Part shown: piece after piece, positions 8,732 through 20,541 of the stretch
Layout: every line of letters starts with the position of its first letter
Numbering within the stretch: position 1 is the first letter of the stretch
Made by a program: the position numbers and the translations under genes
Notes under the pieces: generated by a model
What the model saw: only the letters and a program-made list of their open reading frames with translations
Database searches by the model: none
Told to the model about the DNA's origin: nothing
Source of the DNA: Mycobacterium sp. UM_CSW
GTDB lineage: Bacteria > Actinomycetota > Actinomycetes > Mycobacteriales > Mycobacteriaceae
DNA length: 35,163 nucleotides
Reading direction: 5' to 3'
Assembly: GCF_000455205.1 (NCBI RefSeq)
Contig: NZ_AUWQ01000083.1
Coordinates: 1-35,163 of the forward strand

Positions 8732-8869
8732 TGCGCGTCTCCCTTCGTGGGGCCGTGTCGAGGCAGCCTACCGGGTGACCGTCGAAATTGGGATCGGTAG
8801 CGACGCGGCCGGTCTGTACTTGCGCCCATGACGACGCCACTGGGGCGGCGCATGAAGGAAGGAACTGCA

Positions 8870-9358
8870 GTGAAACGTCTTCTCGTGGGAGCGATTGGAA
8901 CCCTCGGCGTCGCCTCTGCGCTGGTGGGTTGCTCGAGCGGGGGCCACTCAGCCAGCCCGGCGTCGAGCACGGCGCCCAGTGCCTCCACCGGCACCGGCAC
9001 CAACGCGCAGGTCAAGGTCGGCGGCACCGACCTGCCCGGCCTGAACCCGTCCGCGGTGACCTGCGTCAGGACCGGCGGCAAGATCGACATCGGCAGCGGC
9101 ACCACCAGTGGGCCCCAGCAGGCGCTGGCCGTGGTGATGACCGACGCGAACCCCCCGGCGGTCGAGTCGCTCGCGCTCTTCGTCGACGGCAACGCCCTGT
9201 CGGTCAGCAACGGCATGGGTGCGAAGGTCGGCTCGGCCAACGTGTCGGTGGACGGCAAGACGTACACCATCACGGGACAGGCTCAGGGCGCCGACATGAA
9301 GAACCCGATGGCCGGGATGATCACCAAGGACTTCAGCATCAAGGTGACCTGCGGTTGA
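8870..9358 (+). CDS. 19-kDa-antigen (LpqH)-family lipoprotein
   Basis: 162 residues. A signal peptide (VKRLLVGAIGTLGVASA) ends in lipobox LVGC, so the protein should be acylated on that cysteine and anchored at the outer face of the plasma membrane. A Ser/Thr/Ala/Gly-rich linker follows, typically O-glycosylated in this family. The C-terminal domain has AVTCVRTGGKIDI, VVMTDANPPAVESL, YTITGQAQG, NPMAGMITKDFSIKVTCG, matching the LpqH/19-kDa family with its two conserved cysteines. LpqH is a TLR2 agonist in M. tuberculosis; this is a family member, not necessarily its orthologue. GTG 8870 has AAGGAAGGA 7 nt upstream. A strong terminator follows. Confidence 0.88.
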   Translation: MKRLLVGAIGTLGVASALVGCSSGGHSASPASSTAPSASTGTGTNAQVKVGGTDLPGLNPSAVTCVRTGGKIDIGSGTTSGPQQALAVVMTDANPPAVESLALFVDGNALSVSNGMGAKVGSANVSVDGKTYTITGQAQGADMKNPMAGMITKDFSIKVTCG

Positions 9359-9441: not shown

Positions 9442-9447
9442 TATGAT
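9442..9447 (+). promoter_or_regulatory. -10 element for leaderless TPR/CHAT transcript
   Basis: TATGAT is followed by 6 nt and then GTG 9454. It lies directly downstream of the lipoprotein terminator, so the TPR/CHAT pair should have its own promoter. Confidence 0.6.
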
Positions 9448-9453
9448 GCAGCC

Positions 9454-11190
9454 GTGTCGATCCCCGGCGAATTGGAGAACGCCCGCCGGTTGGCGTTCGC
9501 CGCCGACGAGAACTCGGCGCGGGATCTGCTGCTGTCGCTGGTGCCGCGCATCGAGCGGGAAGACCGGGACGACCTGATGCTGGAAGCCCTGGCACAGCTC
9601 GGTGAGATCTACCTGGCGCGGGGGGTGAATGACGGAGTGCGCGAGTCGATCCGGCGCATCCGCGACTGCCTGGCCGTCTATTCGGGCATTTCGGCCGGCA
9701 CCATGCCGGAGGCTGCCGCACAGGTGCGGATGTCCGACGCCGAGGTGGCGCACATGATGGTGCGGTACTCGCAACGGGCGCAGTTTTTGGAAACGGGCCT
9801 GGCCGCGGCCCTCGGCGATCACGAGGGCGCCGCGGCGGCGCTGGCCGCGTTGTCGGACACGGCCCCCGAGGGTGATCTCGCCGACCTCGCCGACGAGCAC
9901 GGCTACCTCGTCACCCACGCGCAGATGCTCTGCGCCAGCGCGCTCTGCGACGACGACCTTCACGTGCAATCGGTTCCGTTATGGGAGCAGGTGCTGGCCG
10001 CGCTGGAGGATCCGGATCGCCTGCGCAGCGACAGCCCGTTCGGCGACTATCTGCGGGTGGCGGCGGCCACCGAGTACGGCAGGTTCTGCGTCGAGACCGG
10101 GCGACTGGCCGAGGCCGAACCCTGGCTGCGCCGGGCGGGCGCCCGCGCGCAAGCGAACGGCTGGGAACTGGCAACGGCCAGAACACAATTGGAACGCGCG
10201 GCGGCCTGCTGGGCATCGGCGGACCACGCCGGCACCGAGCAGCTGGTCTCGGAGGCCTACCCCGTCATCGCGCGCTACGACCGTGCGCACGACATCGCTC
10301 GGTGCTGGCTCTACATGGGATTCACCCGGCTGGGGTCCGGGGCCCTCCAGGCGGCCGACGAGTGCTGGGAGCACGCCGAGCGGCACTGGCGCGACCTCGG
10401 AAAGCCGCTGTACCTGCACCGTATTCTGTTGCAACGCAGCTGGATCGCGATCTTTTGGAGTAAATTCGCCGACGCGGTCGAGCTAATCGCCCAGGCGCGG
10501 GAACTGCTCGACTCGTCGCCGCGCAGCAGTTGGCTGCAATACGCCCAGCTCGACAACCAGCTCGGCACGGTGTGGCGCGCGGATGCGCTGGCGGACCTCG
10601 GCTTCGACAGCTCGGGCGATCCCGACGAGACGCTGGAGGAAACCGAGGCGCGGCAGGCCGAGGGCCTGGGCATCCTCAAGGGCGAGATCGGCACCCCGGA
10701 ATACTGGCGCGGCATGAGCAAGCTCGAACAGGCCGCGGAGCTCAAGGTGCCGGCCGCGCTCGCGGTCGACTCGGTCCGGTATTCGATCGCCGACGCCGAC
10801 GCGCGATCACGTTGGGCGACCAGCGTTTCGGCGCCGATCCTGGCCGGCGCCTTCGCCGTCGCGTGGGAGTGGGAGAACACCGAGCTGATCAGTGAGCTGG
10901 TCGAATACCACAGTGCCCGAGGGACTTTCGACATGGAGCCGGAGCGCGCCAAGATCGGCGAGTGGGCGTCCACGGCCACCCCAGCGGTGCTCATCGAGGA
11001 CGGCGAAGCGCTGGCCGCAGCAGGCCCGCCGGCGCTGGGTGGCCGGTCGCTCACGCGGCTGGGCCCGCTGCCGCCGCTGCAGATGCATCCGGATGCCGCG
11101 CCGATCCTTTGCCACTACCGCGAACTGGCGTTGCAGCGCTATGGCCGCGAGGTCACCGCCGGCGAACCCGCCTGGTCCACCTGGCCATGA
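9454..11190 (+). CDS. TPR-like helical-repeat protein paired with a CHAT protease
   Basis: 578 residues, no signal peptide or membrane segment. It is almost wholly alpha-helical, with repeated helix pairs rich in Ala/Leu/Trp such as ALAQLGEIYLARG, YGRFCVETGRLAEAEPWLRRAG, CWLYMGFTRLGSGALQAADECWEHA and WIAIFWSKFADAVELIAQAREL, the look of degenerate tetratricopeptide repeats. The gene ends in an ATGA overlap with the CHAT gene, so the two are made together. TPR/CHAT pairs are known in separase and in the TPR-CHAT (Craspase) protease, where the repeats sense a partner and switch the protease. GTG 9454 is chosen because it lies 6 nt after TATGAT; the frame is open far upstream, but that part overlaps the lipoprotein gene and is spurious. 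Exact function is unknown. Confidence 0.8.
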   Translation: MSIPGELENARRLAFAADENSARDLLLSLVPRIEREDRDDLMLEALAQLGEIYLARGVNDGVRESIRRIRDCLAVYSGISAGTMPEAAAQVRMSDAEVAHMMVRYSQRAQFLETGLAAALGDHEGAAAALAALSDTAPEGDLADLADEHGYLVTHAQMLCASALCDDDLHVQSVPLWEQVLAALEDPDRLRSDSPFGDYLRVAAATEYGRFCVETGRLAEAEPWLRRAGARAQANGWELATARTQLERAAACWASADHAGTEQLVSEAYPVIARYDRAHDIARCWLYMGFTRLGSGALQAADECWEHAERHWRDLGKPLYLHRILLQRSWIAIFWSKFADAVELIAQARELLDSSPRSSWLQYAQLDNQLGTVWRADALADLGFDSSGDPDETLEETEARQAEGLGILKGEIGTPEYWRGMSKLEQAAELKVPAALAVDSVRYSIADADARSRWATSVSAPILAGAFAVAWEWENTELISELVEYHSARGTFDMEPERAKIGEWASTATPAVLIEDGEALAAAGPPALGGRSLTRLGPLPPLQMHPDAAPILCHYRELALQRYGREVTAGEPAWSTWP

Positions 11191-12533
11191 GTAACACGGA
11201 CCGGCCGACTCTCGTCCTGCGCTTCGCCGACGTCGGGATCGTCACGTACGGGAGCTTGCGGATCGTCGGGCAGCCGTCCAAGACGGTCAACTGGGTGATC
11301 GAGGATCCGATCCTGCTCGCGGCCCTGCAGGAACTGGCCGGCGCCCTACCGGAGCCCAACGGCACGGAAAGCCGTCGCGACGCCATCGAGCGGGCGCTGA
11401 CGACAGGTCCCTTCGCGGCGCCGGACACCGAGTTGACGATGGCCTACATCCTCGGGGTGCTGCTCATCGGCGCGCCCGGTTGGCAGCTGCTGACGGAATG
11501 CGTGTCCACCCCGCGCGCAGTGTTGTTCGTCTCGCCCAGCGCTCGGCTGGCCCGCGTGCCGTGGGGCCTGCTGGCCGTGCCGAAATCGGGGCCGAGCAAG
11601 GAAGAGCTCGTGCGCGCGCGCCAGGATGCCATCACCTCCAGCGGCCGGGTGGCCGCCCAGATCCCTTGGCAGCTCGACGATATCGGCGCCCGCACCGATG
11701 GGCATCGGCTGATGGAACTGGTCGACGTGCTGATGGCGGTGCCACCCAACATCGTGCACTCGCTACGGGCGCCGGCCGGCTGGGACGCCCGGCGGCACGG
11801 GCCCCCGGTGCTGGTCCTCGACCCCCGCGTGCCCGGGCAGCGGCCGGACTCCGAGCTCGGCTCGGTGCTCGGGAGGCCGTCGGCGGCAACGCAATTGACG
11901 CAACACTTCGCCGGGCTGATGCGCCACCGACCGGTGCTGCCCGAAGTCGACGCCGCCGTCGAGCTGTTCCGCCGTCAGGATGCCGACCGCGTCTGGCTGG
12001 CCAAGCAGCTCGCACAATCCCCGAGCCGGCTCATGTATGTCGGCCACGCCAGTTCGGCGCACGGCCAGGCCGACCGCGCGGCGCTGCACCTGGCCTGCAC
12101 GGCGGAGGTTCCGGGAGACGCCGAGCCCATCGGCGATCATCGCCCGCTGACCGCATCGGACCTGATGTCCTTGCAACTGCCCATCCCCCCACGGGTCGCC
12201 CTGCTGGCCTGCGGATCGGGCGGCGACTATCAATTCGACGAGGCGACCGGCCTGGTGGCGGCAATGGTCCTGGGCGGCGCCGAGCTGGTGAGCGCCACCT
12301 TGTGGTCACTGCCCACGTCCGCGGCCTATCGACGGTTCGCCGCCGCCGACGCAGCCGACCCGATGGCCGATGTCGTTGTCGCCGTGGACGAGGCGCACGA
12401 CGGCGCCGACGCGGGGTGCGCGCTGAACCGTTGGCAGCGCGCGCAGATGCGCCGCTGGCGTGACGGCGTCCTGACCGCCAGCCCGCTCTACTGGGCCGCC
12501 ATGGTCAGTTTCGCGGTGGACGGCGCGCGATAA
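11187..12533 (+). CDS. CHAT-domain (caspase-like) cysteine protease
   Basis: 448 residues. A C-terminal CHAT (caspase HetF associated with TPRs) domain spans roughly 100-445. The catalytic dyad is visible: H287 in RLMYVGHASS and C342 in VALLACGSG, followed by EATGLVAAMVLGGAELVSATLW, the usual post-cysteine segment. An upstream strand has RLARVPWGLLAVP (119-131), typical of these domains. The protease therefore looks catalytically intact. The N-terminal 90 residues are unassigned. The ATG overlaps the TPR gene's stop codon, so the two probably form a complex. Downstream, across a short opposing gene, lie two further genes that may encode regulators or substrates. Substrate and trigger are unknown. 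Confidence 0.85.
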   Translation: MSNTDRPTLVLRFADVGIVTYGSLRIVGQPSKTVNWVIEDPILLAALQELAGALPEPNGTESRRDAIERALTTGPFAAPDTELTMAYILGVLLIGAPGWQLLTECVSTPRAVLFVSPSARLARVPWGLLAVPKSGPSKEELVRARQDAITSSGRVAAQIPWQLDDIGARTDGHRLMELVDVLMAVPPNIVHSLRAPAGWDARRHGPPVLVLDPRVPGQRPDSELGSVLGRPSAATQLTQHFAGLMRHRPVLPEVDAAVELFRRQDADRVWLAKQLAQSPSRLMYVGHASSAHGQADRAALHLACTAEVPGDAEPIGDHRPLTASDLMSLQLPIPPRVALLACGSGGDYQFDEATGLVAAMVLGGAELVSATLWSLPTSAAYRRFAAADAADPMADVVVAVDEAHDGADAGCALNRWQRAQMRRWRDGVLTASPLYWAAMVSFAVDGAR

Positions 12534-12538
12534 CGCAC

Positions 12539-12853
12539 TCAGATCGACGCCAGCCAGGACGCGTTGACGGCCACCACATCGTCGGGCAGCGAAAGCTCCT
12601 CGCGGGCAGCGGGATCGAACGCCACCAGGACGACCAGGCCGGGGCGCAGCATCGACACGTCGGCATCGCCGTCACAGCGGGCCAGTTTCCCGATGAACGT
12701 CTCGCCGGACACGGCCACGACCTCGATGAAAACCTGGCGCTCGTCGCCGACGGTGCGCACGGTGCCGACTCCGACGGTGGGCCCCGCGGTGTTGCGGCGC
12801 GGAGCGAACGGGATCCGCACGACGCCCGACAGCAGCATGATCAGCTTTCTCAT
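12539..12853 (-). CDS. Small beta-rich hypothetical protein, opposite strand within the CHAT locus
   Basis: 104 residues. A short hydrophobic N-terminus (MRKLIMLLSGVV) is followed by an apparent small beta-barrel: VGVGTVRTVGDERQVFIEVVAVSGETFIGKLA, LRPGLVVLVAFDP and ends in VVAVNASWLASI. An NfeD/OB-like fold is possible but not provable by eye. The stop lies 5 nt from the CHAT gene's stop, and the start diverges from the next plus-strand gene 83 bp away. An upstream extension to 12985 would overlap that gene's promoter and start, so ATG 12853 is preferred. Confidence 0.65.
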   Translation of the reverse strand: MRKLIMLLSGVVRIPFAPRRNTAGPTVGVGTVRTVGDERQVFIEVVAVSGETFIGKLARCDGDADVSMLRPGLVVLVAFDPAAREELSLPDDVVAVNASWLASI

Positions 12854-12924
12854 GCCACCAGGTTGGAACGCCCAAACGGCTACCGAACCCAACTTTTCGG
12901 CTACGGATATTTTCGGAGAGCCCC

Positions 12925-12930
12925 TATCCT
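12925..12930 (+). promoter_or_regulatory. -10 element for leaderless transcript of the 12937 gene
   Basis: TATCCT is followed by 6 nt and ATG 12937. It gives the third and fourth genes of the CHAT locus a promoter independent of the TPR/CHAT pair. Confidence 0.55.
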
Positions 12931-12936
12931 GTCGGA

Positions 12937-14262
12937 ATGAGCGCGGATTCGCAGGTTGCGACGGTCGTCGCCGCGGGCCACCCACGCCGGTCGGTGATCG
13001 AGGCCGCGTGGCGCGCGATCGGCCCCGGCGTCGAGGTGCTCAGCAGCGACGACGGCGGACCCTTGAGCCGGACCGTCAAGCGCATCATCGACCCCCTGGT
13101 GCTCCGGCTGCGATCCAACCCGCAGTATTCGGCCCCCGTCGTCGCACCGGACACCGCAGCGGCCATGCACGAGCTCATCATCGGCAACGCGCGCGAATTA
13201 CGTTCCGCCGCAGCGTGGTTCGACACTCTCAAGCTCGAGCGCCGCAGGCAGCGCATCCGCACCGGCAACGCCCAGGAATTGTACTTCCCGGTGTGCTTCG
13301 AGCTCGCCGTGACGAAAGGCCCACCGGCGCCGCAGGATAGCGAGACGGCGGCAGCGGTGCTCAACGACATTCACCAGGGCCGCGACCGCACCGCGATCGA
13401 GGTGCTGCACCAATACGTGGCGGGCCCGGATGTGGTGGCCGCGCTGGCCACCCAGCTCGACCGCAGCTGGCGCGACGTGCGGGCCCCGGAAGCGGCGACG
13501 GGCGCCGCTGCGTTTTTTGCCGAGCTGGGCACGGTGCTGGGGCCCGCCGACAGCCACCGCGCCGCGGCGGCCCGGCAGCGGGTCTGGTCTGCCGTGATCG
13601 CCGACGCCACACCGTACAACCTCGGGGCCCTGGCCCGGGTCGAGGCGGCCGAGCTGCCGTGGTCGATCGTCGGGCTGGGCTTGAGTTCGGCTCAGCCACA
13701 ACGGCAGCCACCGATCGCGGGTGGCTCCGACAGCGATCGCCCGCTGGATCGCACGGTGGTGGACCGGGTGCGCGCCACCCTGCGGCGGGCGCTGGACCGC
13801 GACGCGCTGCCCGACATCCCGCTGCTGTGCGAGGAGGAGGTCGACCGGGCCGCGGCGCCCTGGGGCCTGTTGTCCGAGGACAAGCAGGCGACCCTGGTGG
13901 CCGGCATCGAGATCGCCGTCGAGCTGGCGCCGCTGGACCCCTCGGTCTCCAGCCGCTACGCGCTCGCCGCCCAGATCCAGGCCCGCCTGCGCAAGGAGGC
14001 CTACGTGCTGCACGCCCGGCGCTACCTCGCCGAGGGCGGCCCGATCCATCCGCGCCAACGGCAGGTGGTCGACGACCTCGCGGCCTACGCCCAGCCCTAC
14101 CTGAGCCGGCTGTGGGCGCGGCTGCACGGGCGCGACGTCTGGCAGGAGCCGTGCGACGACGTCGACGAGGTGCGGTCCCTGCTCGAGGGCGTCGCGCGGT
14201 CGGTGAGCCTCGACCACCGGCAACGCATCAAGGCGATGCTGGAATTGCAGGTGGCCGGATGA
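12937..14262 (+). CDS. Unrecognised helical protein of the CHAT locus
   Basis: 441 residues; I do not recognise the family. It has no signal peptide or membrane segment and is largely alpha-helical. An N-terminal helical domain (about 1-110: PRRSVIEAAWRAIGPG, LSRTVKRIIDPLVLRLRSNP, AAMHELIIGNARELRSAAAWF) leads to a middle region and a C-terminal helical half with RVRATLRRALDRDALPDIPL, YALAAQIQARLRKEAYVLHARRYL and SLDHRQRIKAMLELQ. The stop codon overlaps the next start (ATGA), so the two products are made together. Position beside an intact TPR/CHAT pair suggests an adaptor, sensor or protease substrate; this is inference from context alone. Confidence 0.75.
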   Translation: MSADSQVATVVAAGHPRRSVIEAAWRAIGPGVEVLSSDDGGPLSRTVKRIIDPLVLRLRSNPQYSAPVVAPDTAAAMHELIIGNARELRSAAAWFDTLKLERRRQRIRTGNAQELYFPVCFELAVTKGPPAPQDSETAAAVLNDIHQGRDRTAIEVLHQYVAGPDVVAALATQLDRSWRDVRAPEAATGAAAFFAELGTVLGPADSHRAAAARQRVWSAVIADATPYNLGALARVEAAELPWSIVGLGLSSAQPQRQPPIAGGSDSDRPLDRTVVDRVRATLRRALDRDALPDIPLLCEEEVDRAAAPWGLLSEDKQATLVAGIEIAVELAPLDPSVSSRYALAAQIQARLRKEAYVLHARRYLAEGGPIHPRQRQVVDDLAAYAQPYLSRLWARLHGRDVWQEPCDDVDEVRSLLEGVARSVSLDHRQRIKAMLELQVAG

Positions 14263-15395
14263 GACTGGTCGCCGACTCGGGGCTGTGGAGCACCGGTCCC
14301 GTCACCGCGGATTCGCCGCTGGCCGCGGTGTTGGAGGTCAGCGGCGGCGTGCTGTCGTGGACGATCGACGACCCACCCGACGACGGGTCGGCCCGCATCA
14401 CCTTCACCGATTTGTCACGCGCCGACTGGCTTTGGCGGGTCCTGGGCGAGGCGGGGCACGTCGCGACAGTGTCCGCGCTCGCCTACGCGTCCGACGAGCC
14501 GACAACCATCGAGCTGGCCGGGGTCGATATCGTGCCCGGCTCGGTCGACCCGCTGCGGCGCCTTGCGATCGGGCATTGGCTGCGGCGGTGGTGGCCGGCC
14601 AGCCGCGTCGACGGCATCGCCGGCCTCGATCGCGCGCTGCTCGACGTCGAAGTCGCGCTGCTGACCTCGGGGGCGCAGGGCTTCTTCACCGACGACACCC
14701 TGGACTCCGACGTGGTGGGGCTGCTGGCACCGCACGCCGCCGCCCTGACCGCGCATCTGCTTGGCGGCGATCCGCGGATAGGCGACTTGGTGCGGGCCGG
14801 CGCCGGGCTCGCCGAAGAGGTCGGTGTGGACGACGACGGCTGGCCGGAACTGTATGAGGCGCTCGACGATCCGGGCGTGGAGCTCGACGCGCCGAGCGGG
14901 CACCGCGACGACTATGCGCTGGCCGCCGGCACGGACGCGGCTCCGCGCGGCGCCGTCCCGATCGCGCGGGGTGTCGCGTCCATCGGCTGGGGCGCGGTTC
15001 CGACCGGCATCTTCGACGCGGGCGAGGACACGGTCGACTGGACCGTCCAGCTGGCCGACGCTGCGGTGGTCGCCGTCGTGCGGGCGGCCGTCATCGGGCC
15101 CGACCCGGCCACCGGCATCCCCGTGCAACTGCGATCCGGGGACGTGAGCGGCAGCGGCGCGCTGGATGCCCACGGCGGCGCGATCCTTCCACTGGTCGAC
15201 GGCCGGCAACTCCCGGTGACGGAAGCGGCGGCCTGGGACCACGATTGGTCGGCGACGGCGGTGATCGTCGGCGCCGAGCCGCCGGAGGCCCGCGAGACCC
15301 GGGAGCGGGTTCGCCGGTGGGCCAGGGCGCGGCTGGACCGGCCGCCGCGCGACGCCTTCCTGGCGGAGATCATGGCCGGCGAATCCGACTACTGA
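14259..15395 (+). CDS. Unrecognised two-domain protein of the CHAT locus
   Basis: 378 residues; family not recognised. The N-terminal part mixes strands and helices (VLEVSGGVLSWTIDD, RRLAIGHWLRRWWPASRVDG). An acidic middle (VGVDDDGWPELYEALDDPG) follows. The C-terminal part is beta-rich (ASIGWGAVPTGIFDAGEDTVDWTV, AAVIGPDPATGIPVQLRSGD), recalling an immunoglobulin/transthyretin-like sandwich, and ends in a basic helix (TRERVRRWARARLDR). It is translationally coupled to the preceding gene by an ATGA overlap. A much longer open frame reaches upstream, but that part is the out-of-frame shadow of the previous gene. No signal peptide, so it is probably cytosolic. Confidence 0.75.
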   Translation: MRLVADSGLWSTGPVTADSPLAAVLEVSGGVLSWTIDDPPDDGSARITFTDLSRADWLWRVLGEAGHVATVSALAYASDEPTTIELAGVDIVPGSVDPLRRLAIGHWLRRWWPASRVDGIAGLDRALLDVEVALLTSGAQGFFTDDTLDSDVVGLLAPHAAALTAHLLGGDPRIGDLVRAGAGLAEEVGVDDDGWPELYEALDDPGVELDAPSGHRDDYALAAGTDAAPRGAVPIARGVASIGWGAVPTGIFDAGEDTVDWTVQLADAAVVAVVRAAVIGPDPATGIPVQLRSGDVSGSGALDAHGGAILPLVDGRQLPVTEAAAWDHDWSATAVIVGAEPPEARETRERVRRWARARLDRPPRDAFLAEIMAGESDY

Positions 15396-16655: not shown

Positions 16656-18803
16656 ATGAACTTTTCGATTTTTCCGCCAGAGATCAATTCCTCGCTCATA
16701 TTCAACGGCGCCGGGTCCGGTCCCCTCTTGGCCGCGGCGTCGGCCTGGGACGGACTGGCCGGCGAGTTGGGGTCGGCGGCCGACTCGTTCTCCTCGGTGA
16801 CCAACGGCCTGGCGGGCCAGGCCTGGCAGGGCCCGGCGTCGGCGGCGATGATTGCCGCGGCAACCCCCTACAGCGGATGGTTGAGCGCCGCAGCGGCTCA
16901 GGCGCAAAACGCCGCCGCGCAGGCCAAGGCGGTGGCAAGCGCGTTCGAGTCGGCCTTGGCAGCGACCGTGCATCCGGTGCTCGTCGCCGCCAACCGCAAT
17001 CAGCTTGCGCAGTTGGTTCGCTCAAACCTGTTGGGCTTCAACGCCCCAGCGATCGCCGCCGTCGAGGGCCAATACGAACTCATGTGGGCGGCCGACGTGG
17101 CCGCGATGGTCGGCTATCACGGCGGTGCGTCTGCCGCGGCCGCGCAATTGGCATCGCTGCCGCAGCTGCTGCAGAGCCTGCCCGCCGCGGCCACCCAGGC
17201 GGCCACGGTCGCCATCTCCGACAATCCCATGGTCGCCGCCGTCAGGTCGGCGTGCGACGGGTCGGTGTCCAAAGCGCGGACCCTACGCCTGGCCGCGGCC
17301 AGCAAGGTTGACGGTAGCGTCCGCACGATCACCACCACCGTGGGCGCGGCAGCGGCCGCCCCCGGCTTCAATCTCGGCATCGGCAACATCGGCAGCAATA
17401 ACCTGGGCTCCGGCAACACCGGCAACACCAACTTCGGCAACGGCAACATCGGCAACCAAAACCTGGGCAACGGCAACAACGGCAGCCTCAACTTCGGCAG
17501 CGGGAACGGCGCCGATGGCACAATCGCGTCCACCTTGAACCTGGGCAACGGAAACATCGGCAGCCAAAACCTGGGCAGCGGAAACTTCGGCAACCAAAAT
17601 CTGGGCTCGGGCAACACCGGGAGTGGAAACTTCGGCTCAGGCAACAACGGCAGCGGTAACTTCGGTAGCGGCAACATCGGCAACCAGAACTACGGCAGCG
17701 GGAACGACGGTAACGCCAACTACGGGTTCGGCAACTTCGGCAGTAACAACATCGGCTTCGGGAACTCGGGCCCCGGCGGCACGGCGGGTAGCGGCAACAT
17801 CGGCGCCGGGAACACCGGGAACAACAACATCGGCTTCGGGCTCACCGGCAACAACGAAATCGGTGTCGGGAACACCTATTTCAACACCGCAACCAATCAG
17901 TTCAACTTCGGCGGCCTGAACTCCGGCAGCGGCAACATCGGCCTGTTCAACTCGGGCACCAACAACGTCGGCTTCTTCAACTCCGGCAACGGAAACTTCG
18001 GCATCGGCAATTCGGGCGTCACCGACACCGGCCTCTTCAACTCCGGCAATGTCGACACCGGTCTCGCTAATTCGGGCGGCCTGGATATGGGCTTCGGAAA
18101 TGCGGGACCGAACGCATTGGCGGGCGGCAACCTGGGCTTCTGGAACTCCGGGGTCAACAACATGGGTATGGCAAACTCTGGCAGCTTCAACTTCGGCATG
18201 GGGAACTCGGGCTTGGACAACATGGGTATGTTCAACTCCGGCGTGGGCAATACCGGCAACTTCAATGCCGGAACGGACAACACCGGCGACTTCAACGGTG
18301 GGGACTTCAACACCGGCTACGAGAACTCGGGGTTGGTCAACACGGGCATGTTCAATTCGGGAACCCTCAACACCGGCGTGGGCAGCGCGGCTGTGCAGTC
18401 GGTTGCCAATTCGGGCTTCGGCAACACCGGGACGGACAACTCGGGCTTCTTCAATACCGGCGGCGGGAGCTTGAGCTCGGGCTTCTTCAACACGAATTCC
18501 AGCGGCTTCACCACGGGCTTCATGAACACGGGCAGCGGCGACGGCGACGTGGGCTTCTTCAACTCGGGGACCAGCCCCTCGATCGGCATACTGAACTCGG
18601 GTGGCGGCTTCGACGTCGGCCTCTTCAATTCGGGTCTGGGCGATTTCAACGTCGGCATCGGGAACTCAGGCGGCGGCGGCTTCAACACCGGCTTGTTCAA
18701 CACCGGCGCCTTCAGCTCGGGCCTGGCGAACATGGGCGCCGCATTCCTGAGCTCCGGCGCCTTCAACATGGCGCCGAACCAGTCGGGCTTCTTCGGGTTC
18801 TAA
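16656..18803 (+). CDS. PPE protein, MPTR subfamily
   Basis: 715 residues. The N-terminal PPE domain (about 1-180) begins [20 protein letters not shown] with the Pro-Pro-Glu motif at 7-9, a WxG turn in GQAWQGPAS, and [18 protein letters not shown]. After a helical linker, about 460 residues consist of MPTR pentapeptides of the form NxGxG ([15 protein letters not shown], later FNSGxxNxGF). MPTR PPE proteins are usually exported by ESX-5 and act at the cell surface. No PE partner gene is adjacent here. The stop codon is 4 nt from the stop of the converging hydrolase gene, with no terminator between. Confidence 0.95.
17395..18760 (+). repeat. MPTR-type tandem repeat array
   Basis: Near-15-bp units of the type GGCAACxxCGGC(A/T)(A/G)C, encoding Asn-x-Gly-x-Gly pentapeptides, then FNSGxxN units in the second half. 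The shift from GSGN-type to FNSG-type repeats lies near 17900. Such arrays recombine easily and differ between strains. Confidence 0.85.
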
Positions 18804-18807
18804 GGAG

Positions 18808-20106
18808 TTAACGCCCGCCGGACGCCACCGCCGCCCGACGGCGGTCGGACTTGTATGCCGCGCCGAGCCGCGGCACCTCGAGCGGGCCCTGATGGCGGGC
18901 GGCCTCGACGGCGTTGCGCAGCGGACTGGCCAGTCCCGCAAAGGAACCCATGTCGAAGAGCAACGGGGTCAGCAGCCGGTTGTGCACGAACGCGAAGGCG
19001 CTGCCGGAGTCCGGGTCGGCCCAGCCGAGGGTCCCGCCCAGACCCACGTGACCGAAACCCTTGAGCAGCCCGGGCACCGGCGACTCGTGGTAGCCCAGGT
19101 GAAATGGCATGGGCACCACCATGTTTGCGTCGGGCCACTTGCGCTGCGGCTGCCCCGCCAGGCCGCGCGCCAACTCCTCGGACAGATATTTCTTGCCGTC
19201 GATCCGGCCGTCATTGGCCAGCGCGGCGTACATCTTGGCCAGACCGCGGCCGGTCACCACGCCGTTGGCCGCCGGCACCTCGCCGTCCAGGAATTCGGTG
19301 TCGCCCTTGATGAGGGAAATGACGCCGGGAAAGTACATCGCCCCCAGCGCACCGGAGAACGGCAGGCCCGCCAGTTTCGGTGCGATGAAGTTGAACACCG
19401 GGGCGCGAAGCCGCCCCTGCGGGATCAGGATCTGGGCCGCCTTCGTCGGCGCCCCTTCGGGCGGGCGGCCGAGGTGCAGGCCGTCGGTGTTGAGCGGGCG
19501 CGCGATTTCCTGGCGGATCAGCTCCCGCATGCCCTTGCCCGTCACCGCCCGGGCCAGGCCGGAGAGCAGCCATCCGTAGGTCAGGGCGTGGTACGCCTGC
19601 ACGCCGCGCAGATGATCGACGGGCGCGGCGGCCAGGCGCTCTTCCATGAGTGCGTGGTCCATCAGCTCAATCTTGGTGACACCCCGCAGGTGCGACAACC
19701 CGGACCGATGCCGCAGCACGTCGCGGACCGTGATGTCGGCCTTGCCGTTGGCCGCGAATTCGGGCCAGTATTCGGCGACCGGGTCGTCATAGGACAACAG
19801 GCCGCGATCGGCCAGCCGGTGGATCACGGTCGACGCGATGCCCTTGGTAGCCGAGAACACCATCGCTCCCGTGTCGGCGGTCCAGCGTTCGGTGCCGGCC
19901 CGGTCCGACCACCCCGTCCAGACGTCGACGACGGGCACACCGTCGATGTAGACGGCCAGCGCACCGCCGCCGAAACGGCGGCCGAAGAACAACCGGGCGA
20001 AGATCCCGATGACATTGGCGAAATGGGGGTCGGCGGCGCCGGACACACCGCGGGGCAAGCCGTCGTCGGTCACCAGCAGGGTCGATCCCCTGCGCGATGC
20101 CATCAC
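18808..20106 (-). CDS. Beta-lactamase-fold serine hydrolase/esterase
   Basis: 432 residues of the beta-lactamase/class C esterase (EstB/LipE-like) family. The catalytic SxxK motif is SATK in GAMVFSATKGIAST, the tyrosine motif is YHALTYGWLLSG, and a GHVGLGGTLGW segment stands in for the KTG-like strand. No signal peptide, so probably cytosolic or membrane-associated. It likely hydrolyses a short acyl ester or lipid; the substrate is unknown. M. tuberculosis has several members (lipD, lipE, lipL, lipP) and I cannot assign this one. GTG 20106 lies 6 nt after a TAGCTT -10 element, suggesting a leaderless start; ATG 20103 follows immediately. Confidence 0.87.
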   Translation of the reverse strand: MMASRRGSTLLVTDDGLPRGVSGAADPHFANVIGIFARLFFGRRFGGGALAVYIDGVPVVDVWTGWSDRAGTERWTADTGAMVFSATKGIASTVIHRLADRGLLSYDDPVAEYWPEFAANGKADITVRDVLRHRSGLSHLRGVTKIELMDHALMEERLAAAPVDHLRGVQAYHALTYGWLLSGLARAVTGKGMRELIRQEIARPLNTDGLHLGRPPEGAPTKAAQILIPQGRLRAPVFNFIAPKLAGLPFSGALGAMYFPGVISLIKGDTEFLDGEVPAANGVVTGRGLAKMYAALANDGRIDGKKYLSEELARGLAGQPQRKWPDANMVVPMPFHLGYHESPVPGLLKGFGHVGLGGTLGWADPDSGSAFAFVHNRLLTPLLFDMGSFAGLASPLRNAVEAARHQGPLEVPRLGAAYKSDRRRAAVASGGR

Positions 20107-20112
20107 GGGATC

Positions 20113-20118
20113 AAGCTA
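20113..20118 (-). promoter_or_regulatory. -10 element for leaderless hydrolase transcript
   Basis: TAGCTT on the minus strand, then 6 nt, then GTG 20106 directly followed by ATG. It lies in the 39-bp gap behind the small membrane protein gene. Confidence 0.5.
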
Positions 20119-20145
20119 TCAGCCGGCAAACGCGCTGAACACAGC

Positions 20146-20310
20146 TCATTCCGGGGGCCGGGAGGTCTGGTCGCCCGGCGGTTGGTCGGGGGGCGGGGCG
20201 TTCAACCACTTCCTGAGCCGAAACAGCTGATTGACCACCATGCCGATGCCCAACAACATCAGCACGGCAACAATCGCCACCACCACCGCGGTGCCCACGA
20301 TGTCCATCAT
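20146..20310 (-). CDS. Small single-pass membrane protein
   Basis: 54 residues (MMDIVGTAVVVAIVAVLMLL...). One clear hydrophobic helix spans about residues 5-27, followed by a basic patch (RLRKW) and a Pro-rich polar tail (NAPPPDQPPGDQTSRPPE), so the C-terminus probably faces the cytoplasm. Upstream in-frame sequence is the shadow of the CsbD gene. The two Met codons at 20310 and 20307 are both possible starts. It diverges from the CsbD gene (57 bp apart) and lies 39 bp upstream of the hydrolase. Function unknown; the compact composition supports a real gene. Confidence 0.6.
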   Translation of the reverse strand: MMDIVGTAVVVAIVAVLMLLGIGMVVNQLFRLRKWLNAPPPDQPPGDQTSRPPE

Positions 20311-20367
20311 GGCAGGCGCGACGACCTGCGGTTTCGAGATGGCCCACCGCTGGGTAGTCACCAGCAC

Positions 20368-20541
20368 ATGAGTGGAACAGACAAGGCGAAGAACAAGATC
20401 GAAGATCTGGGCGGCCGGGCCAAGGAAGCCATCGGCAAGGCCACCGGAGATCACGACACCAGAAACGAAGGCCGGGCCGATCAGGCGAAGTCCAGCCTGA
20501 AGGACGCCGGCGAGAAGGTGAAGGACGCCTTCAAGAAGTAA
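20368..20541 (+). CDS. CsbD-family stress protein
   Basis: 57 residues, lysine/aspartate-rich and strongly helical: MSGTDKAKNKIEDLGGRAKE, AIGKATGDHDTRNEGRADQA and DAGEKVKDAFKK are the hallmark of CsbD proteins, small general-stress proteins of unknown mechanism. In Bacillus csbD is under sigma-B; here control is not visible. The longer open frame upstream belongs to the antisense of the hydrolase gene. A TAGTCA hexamer lies 7 nt before the ATG and could be a weak leaderless -10. A strong terminator follows. Confidence 0.88.
   Translation: MSGTDKAKNKIEDLGGRAKEAIGKATGDHDTRNEGRADQAKSSLKDAGEKVKDAFKK

Follow-up and report, generated by a model that had tools for sequence, protein, structure and literature searches.

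A TPR–CHAT protease gene cassette with two unrecognised partner families, conserved in many mycobacteria and some other actinomycetes

Introduction

Why should a caspase-like protease be encoded beside two proteins of unrecognised families on an ordinary mycobacterial chromosome, and do these genes work together? The question is raised by contig NZ_AUWQ01000083.1 of Mycobacterium sp. UM_CSW, the first 35,163 nucleotides of which were analysed (referred to as the window) and which carries, in this order, a TPR gene, a CHAT gene, an opposing gene of 104 aa and two genes designated A441 and B378. In separase-type proteases, the catalytic CHAT domain is paired with a partner region of helical repeats. 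Csx29, the TPR–CHAT protease of Craspase, is held in an inactive state by where its dyad lies; once signalled, it makes a single cut in a flexible loop of one partner protein (PMC10028731). The features of the locus are listed below; locus (L) and genome (G) numbers in the text are our own.

8828..9358, + strand: LPQ, lipoprotein of the 19-kDa-antigen family (PF05481, E 1.8e-30), directly upstream of TPR
9442..9447, + strand: TATGAT, -10-like element 6 nt ahead of the TPR GTG; predicted leaderless start
9454..11190, + strand: TPR, putative scaffold, GTG start, 578 aa
11187..12533, + strand: CHAT, predicted caspase-like protease, 448 aa (PF12770, E 1.5e-13)
12045..12047, + strand: codon of His287, predicted catalytic, conserved
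12210..12212, + strand: codon of Cys342, predicted catalytic, conserved
12539..12853, - strand: SM, small opposing gene, 104 aa, 5 nt beyond the CHAT stop
12925..12930, + strand: TATCCT, -10-like element 6 nt ahead of the A441 ATG; predicted leaderless start
12937..14262, + strand: A441, unrecognised family, all-helical in the model, most conserved member
14259..15395, + strand: B378, unrecognised family, two-part in the model
14913..14930, + strand: YALAAG motif of B378 (residues 219–224), inside the low-confidence stretch 207–230

Results

Layout and genomic setting

An earlier note on this DNA is confirmed in its coordinates, in the two 4 nt ATGA overlaps (TPR/CHAT at 11187–11190 and A441/B378 at 14259–14262), in the opposing gene 5 nt beyond the CHAT stop and in the His287/Cys342 dyad. 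Its further proposal, that both pairs have leaderless starts, is consistent with the wider set of loci: the pattern TATGAT-N5-8-start was met at the TPR start in 71/77 mycobacterial loci and the pattern TAT[CT]CT-N4-8-start at the A441 start, likewise in 71/77, both counts coming from mutually related loci with predicted starts.

The genome is that of a 6.39-Mb mycobacterium with a single CHAT match; the closest counterpart of the locus in the species collection comes from Mycobacterium sp. E796, the CHAT protein of which is 97% identical. The upstream flank holds a DnaX-type gene, an aspartate aminotransferase gene, the SRP RNA and a tRNA-Ser, and a DAP_DH_C-domain protein is encoded downstream; the site is ordinary housekeeping chromosome. 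Elsewhere in the window, a 715-aa repeat-rich protein with asparagine–glycine pentapeptide-like repeats, which we take to be of the PPE type, is encoded at 16656–18803, and the final 53 residues of a 549-aa reading frame at 18892–20541 match CsbD, the remainder being unrecognised.

The TPR and CHAT proteins

The CHAT protein lies above the curated PF12770 cut-off (51.3 bits vs 24). Both His287 and Cys342 are present in 79 of the 80 aligned mycobacterial rows, that of the window included, the sole exception being a fragment from a decayed locus of M. lepraemurium (L069), and the same dyad occurs in 22/22 distant CHAT proteins from outside the genus. The dyad, said in the earlier note to be intact, has thus not been substituted. 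The window TPR protein falls under every Pfam TPR cut-off (TPR_12, E 0.064), and its homologues can lie well above (TPR_12, E 2.7e-23 in L119 and 3.9e-16 in L122); it appears from these matches to be too diverged for Pfam, its homologues being plain TPR proteins. Furthermore, TPR and CHAT form one reading frame in 9/22 loci outside the genus (L112–L115, L125, L158 and L160–L162), with fused proteins predicted at 934–1031 aa; no other observation argues so strongly that the two act as a single protein.

The two partner families

The description of A441 and B378 as unrecognised stood up, with no housekeeping family matched in Pfam, NCBIfam or PADLOC. The window A441 protein has no match in any of the three collections; the window B378 protein has none in Pfam or PADLOC and a single NCBIfam match at chance level. 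No Pfam cut-off was reached by the 16 A441 and 27 B378 members scanned, the rows below cut-off including PRODH in 1/16 A441 members (E 0.033) and GatC in 1/27 B378 members (E 0.046). In addition, the B378 relatives gave no PADLOC match.

The predicted structure of A441 is all-helical (pLDDT 58.7, confident over approximately the first 145 aa only). The B378 model (pLDDT 81.9) consists of an alpha/beta N-terminal part and an Ig-like beta C-terminal part, with residues 207–230 as a low-confidence stretch between the two predicted folded parts. The best conserved six residues of B378, YALAAG, lie in this stretch, where residues 217–224 average 98% conservation within a segment of pLDDT < 50. LAAG is found in 27/27 class-level rows and in 70/77 mycobacterial rows; of the seven rows that do not show it, two are fragments (L025 and L069) and one contains unread bases (L030), and the other four, L009, L066, L077 and L081 (one extra A), differ genuinely. 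The distance from YALAAG to the next conserved motif downstream, in the C-terminal part, is nearly fixed at 17–20 residues, whereas that to the conserved motif upstream varies from 49 to 121 residues. This pattern would suit a site of cleavage or docking that borders the second part, and also a strand belonging to that part; the low pLDDT around the motif may reflect the alignment.

All five genes gave dN/dS below 1 in six pairwise comparisons: 0.11–0.20 for TPR, 0.11–0.18 for CHAT, 0.07–0.15 for A441, 0.26–0.36 for B378 and, under weaker selection, 0.25–0.52 for SM. A441, not B378, is therefore the more conserved partner. As A441 is all-helical in the model and the most conserved member, as is expected of a structural subunit, A441 and B378 might be chaperones or stabilisers of the TPR–CHAT complex, the real substrate being encoded elsewhere; nothing specific was found against this explanation, which we nevertheless regard as very unlikely.

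Conservation and loss in mycobacteria

Eighty mycobacterial loci were found via CHAT, 77 with all four main genes (TPR, CHAT, A441 and B378) and 74 with all four open. Of the remaining six, five break off close to the end of a contig and one, that of M. lepraemurium (L069, 5700–11081), is decayed, with A441 gone and CHAT, B378, the lipoprotein gene and a flank gene in broken pieces. Gene order and strand are identical in all 74 loci in which every main gene is open, each with a 4-nt overlap between A441 and B378; the TPR/CHAT overlap measures 4 nt in 56 of them and 10–19 nt in the other 18.

Because the 80 loci had been picked by CHAT, A441 and CHAT were searched separately in the same 396 genomes of the genus. 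A441 was found in 251 and CHAT in 250 (∼63%), both in 247 and neither in 142, co-occurrence counts that are inflated by relatedness among the genomes. One half only was found in 7/396: four genomes have A441 only (G005, of 84% completeness, G104, G105 and G129) and three have CHAT only, as weak matches (G225, G362 and G369). The two gene pairs are separate transcription units in mycobacteria yet travel together; the block has long been inherited as a unit, its genes being retained and lost together. In two genomes with neither gene (G046 and G060), no LPQ, TPR, CHAT, SM, A441 or B378 was found in ∼20 kb round the kept downstream flank gene; either the loss of the cassette is complete or the flank gene has moved.

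Distribution beyond the genus

With the A441 profile, 39/249 genomes and 8/68 genera were positive in the order, 35/394 genomes and 7/137 genera in the class, and 6/198 genomes in the phylum, each of the six belonging to the family from which the window comes. Twenty-five regions from outside the genus were read, representing 14/16 positives of the order search and 11/12 further positives of the class search. All four genes are present in 22/25; the exceptions are L157, where the contig runs no further than B378, as well as L124 and L163, which hold A441 remnants only. The order is A441–B378–TPR–CHAT in 21/22, and the one other locus (L125) has the mycobacterial order of lipoprotein, TPR–CHAT, A441 and B378, all on one strand. 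Six records of the plasmid collection match A441, and the three read (two from Streptomyces and one from Nocardia) hold the four genes, the whole cassette being carried by two Streptomyces megaplasmids. Neither a phage record nor a confirmed viral contig gave a match, and a prophage or phage origin was rejected on this ground. The cassette is not confined to mycobacteria and is also present in some other actinomycetes. In the five-gene neighbourhood survey that the earlier note had called for, the genes were not mostly apart, with 77/80 mycobacterial loci and 22/25 regions from other genera showing all four main genes; the frame given there, a TPR–CHAT protease with an obligate pair of partners, is the right one, and the genes form one system.

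Accessory neighbours and possible roles

The range 9454..15395 claimed for the block contains the core four genes, but the lipoprotein gene LPQ at 8828–9358, upstream of that range, belongs to it too. LPQ passes PF05481 (Myco_19_kDa; 106.1 bits vs a cut-off of 23) and has a lipobox-like LVGC; it is co-oriented with TPR and lies 64–107 nt upstream of it in 73/73 loci with > 700 nt upstream. A lipoprotein is also found at the cassette in L116, L119, L120, L125 and L172. The genome of the window has seven PF05481 matches in total, and in a tree the cassette-linked lipoproteins form one 17-row group apart from its six other copies, a grouping that is only suggestive because its support is modest (82/78) and several branches are long. 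These data suggest that LPQ tracks the cassette across genera as a long-standing associate.

The inclusion of the small opposing gene in the block proved correct only in part. SM was found in 71/80 mycobacterial loci, on the opposite strand every time, but it is not constant and is the shortened remnant of a longer membrane protein. It encodes < 130 aa in 53 loci and ≥ 180 aa in 18, the long homologues reaching 189–219 aa in part of the genus. Since the forms outside the genus are ∼260 aa long and have a pair of transmembrane segments as well as two repeats, the window SM, with one beta-rich repeat left of two and no clear transmembrane segment by hydrophobicity, is a shortened form. The long forms weakly resemble DUF3592 (E 0.001–0.008, 17.3–19.7 bits vs a cut-off of 25.3); no DUF3592 match was found for the window SM in the Pfam scan.

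In other genera, the cassette is accompanied by a PQQ-like propeller protein that carries a membrane segment, encoded nearby in L117, L118 and L121–L123 and downstream of CHAT in L155, L156 and L159. Near the cassette in L117 (3401–6157) and L123 (13370–16276), large proteins are encoded in which a PQQ-like propeller comes after an HSP70-type ATPase region. An NB-ARC–TPR (STAND) protein adjoins the cassette in L112 (6236–8272), as does a NACHT-like protein of 1155 aa in L118 (12710–16177).

The lipoprotein beside the cassette, the membrane protein encoded divergently upstream and the membrane-anchored PQQ-like propeller of several genera, together with strong purifying selection, are consistent with envelope or developmental stress signalling, in which one of these proteins would switch CHAT, a regulator would be cut and expression would change without cell death. 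However, the lipoprotein, the membrane protein and the propeller are each absent from part of the loci, the window SM has lost its membrane segments, and the block contains no constant regulator gene; signalling of this kind is a reasonable but somewhat unlikely explanation.

Alternatively, A441–B378 might sense an intruder and TPR–CHAT kill or arrest the cell by cutting host proteins. TPR–CHAT is described as a recurrent effector in prokaryotic conflict systems (PMC10907252; PMC8195603), STAND-type neighbours occur in a few loci (NB-ARC–TPR in L112 and NACHT-like in L118), presence is patchy (35/394 genomes of the class) and Streptomyces megaplasmids carry the cassette. Against this, neither the five window genes nor the B378 relatives have a PADLOC match, and none of the ten other window genes scanned is a clear defence gene, the single PADLOC match among them (mad2) being a cyclopropane-synthetase-type methyltransferase by Pfam. 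Furthermore, no phage record or viral contig was matched, and the stable chromosomal site and low dN/dS are unlike an arms race. A role in conflict is possible, although nothing found requires it, and as a full explanation we consider it unlikely. Owing to the high conservation, the housekeeping site and the lack of phage carriage and of PADLOC matches, a physiological stress switch fits at least as well.

Discussion

Proposed mechanism

The best reading of the cassette is an undescribed actinomycete TPR–CHAT proteolytic switch with A441–B378 as its obligate partner module. We tentatively favour, at rather less than even chances, one multi-protein switch in which A441–B378 gate CHAT and present or are its target, B378 is the likeliest protein to be cut and the envelope proteins are accessories. 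By analogy with Craspase, TPR would scaffold and hold CHAT, A441 may be the structural gate, and the lipoprotein, the two-repeat membrane protein and the membrane-anchored propeller of other genera would probably bring an envelope signal; complex formation, gating, the choice of B378 and the signal itself are all inferred, whereas the conserved gene set, its joint retention, the preserved dyad and the TPR–CHAT fusion are observed. B378 is the first-choice substrate because it is predicted to have two parts with a conserved segment between them and changes faster than A441, and the cut would be made at or beside YALAAG, between the two folded parts. Against a cleavage site, the fixed downstream and variable upstream spacing of the motif also fits the edge of a structural domain. 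The favoured reading is further weakened by the 7/77 mycobacterial rows that do not show LAAG, by the stronger conservation of A441 than of B378, by the modest support for the lipoprotein group and by the 7/396 genomes with a single half. A more specific version, in which A441 releases TPR–CHAT when the envelope lipoprotein or propeller senses damage or attack, B378 is cut at YALAAG and the freed halves respond, is considered quite unlikely.

Whatever the role of the cassette, ∼63% of the mycobacterial genomes sampled encode a caspase-like protease whose active site is preserved, together with two families that lie under the Pfam cut-offs, which raises the question of why some mycobacterial lineages lost the cassette. 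If signalling by B378 cleavage is true, the cassette would represent a distinct, actinomycete-wide class of protease switch with no NTPase or CRISPR part, which has escaped notice although most species of a major genus retain it.

Comparison with known systems

No paper pairing CHAT with mycobacteria or actinobacteria was found in the open-licence PMC literature, and the cassette is described in no open-licence paper found, as judged by titles and abstract openings. Unlike separase-type CHAT proteases, the cassette has no housekeeping cell-division link, and it forms a bacterial operon in which both partners are orphans. The VMAP ternary systems are likewise conserved multi-gene, conflict-like systems of actinomycetes (Kaur et al., 2020); this identity was rejected, with no MoxR or vWA match among the five proteins.

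Craspase resembles the cassette in having TPR and CHAT with a His–Cys dyad and dedicated partner genes, and its partner, like the modelled B378, is in two parts, its domains being connected through a flexible linker (PMC10028731). However, TPR and CHAT have a gene each in the window, and no relation of A441 or B378 to Csx30 was found. Cas7-11, the core partner in Craspase, was found neither among the five cassette proteins (Pfam, NCBIfam and PADLOC) nor, by PADLOC, in ten other reading frames of the window, and identity with Craspase is not supported by the proteins scanned.

The main alternative was membership of CATRA, in which a TPR–CHAT protease likewise stands beside a dedicated partner of an otherwise unrecognised family in actinomycetes. 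The system was reportedly defined by Burroughs and Aravind in 2020. In two CATRA loci that were fetched (L167 and L169), a CHAT protein of 1242 and 1264 aa, respectively, adjoins the CATRA-N/C protein. CATRA has one partner gene, whereas the cassette has two; an effector is fused to the CATRA partner (the glycosyltransferase GT4 in 2/3 loci read), whereas no effector domain was found in the A441 and B378 members. Neither CATRA-N nor CATRA-C matched any of the five window proteins (E threshold 10) or any of the 16 A441 and 27 B378 members (E threshold 0.05), and CATRA-C had no match in the whole genome of the window. Comparison by hhalign gave probabilities of 0.1 and 0.9% for A441 and B378, a weak test that used three CATRA sequences only. 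Membership is not supported by the sequence models tested, the defining domains being absent. CHAT with TPR is already known, and among the known systems the cassette is closest in layout to CATRA; it would join the small list of bacterial TPR–CHAT systems with a known partner.
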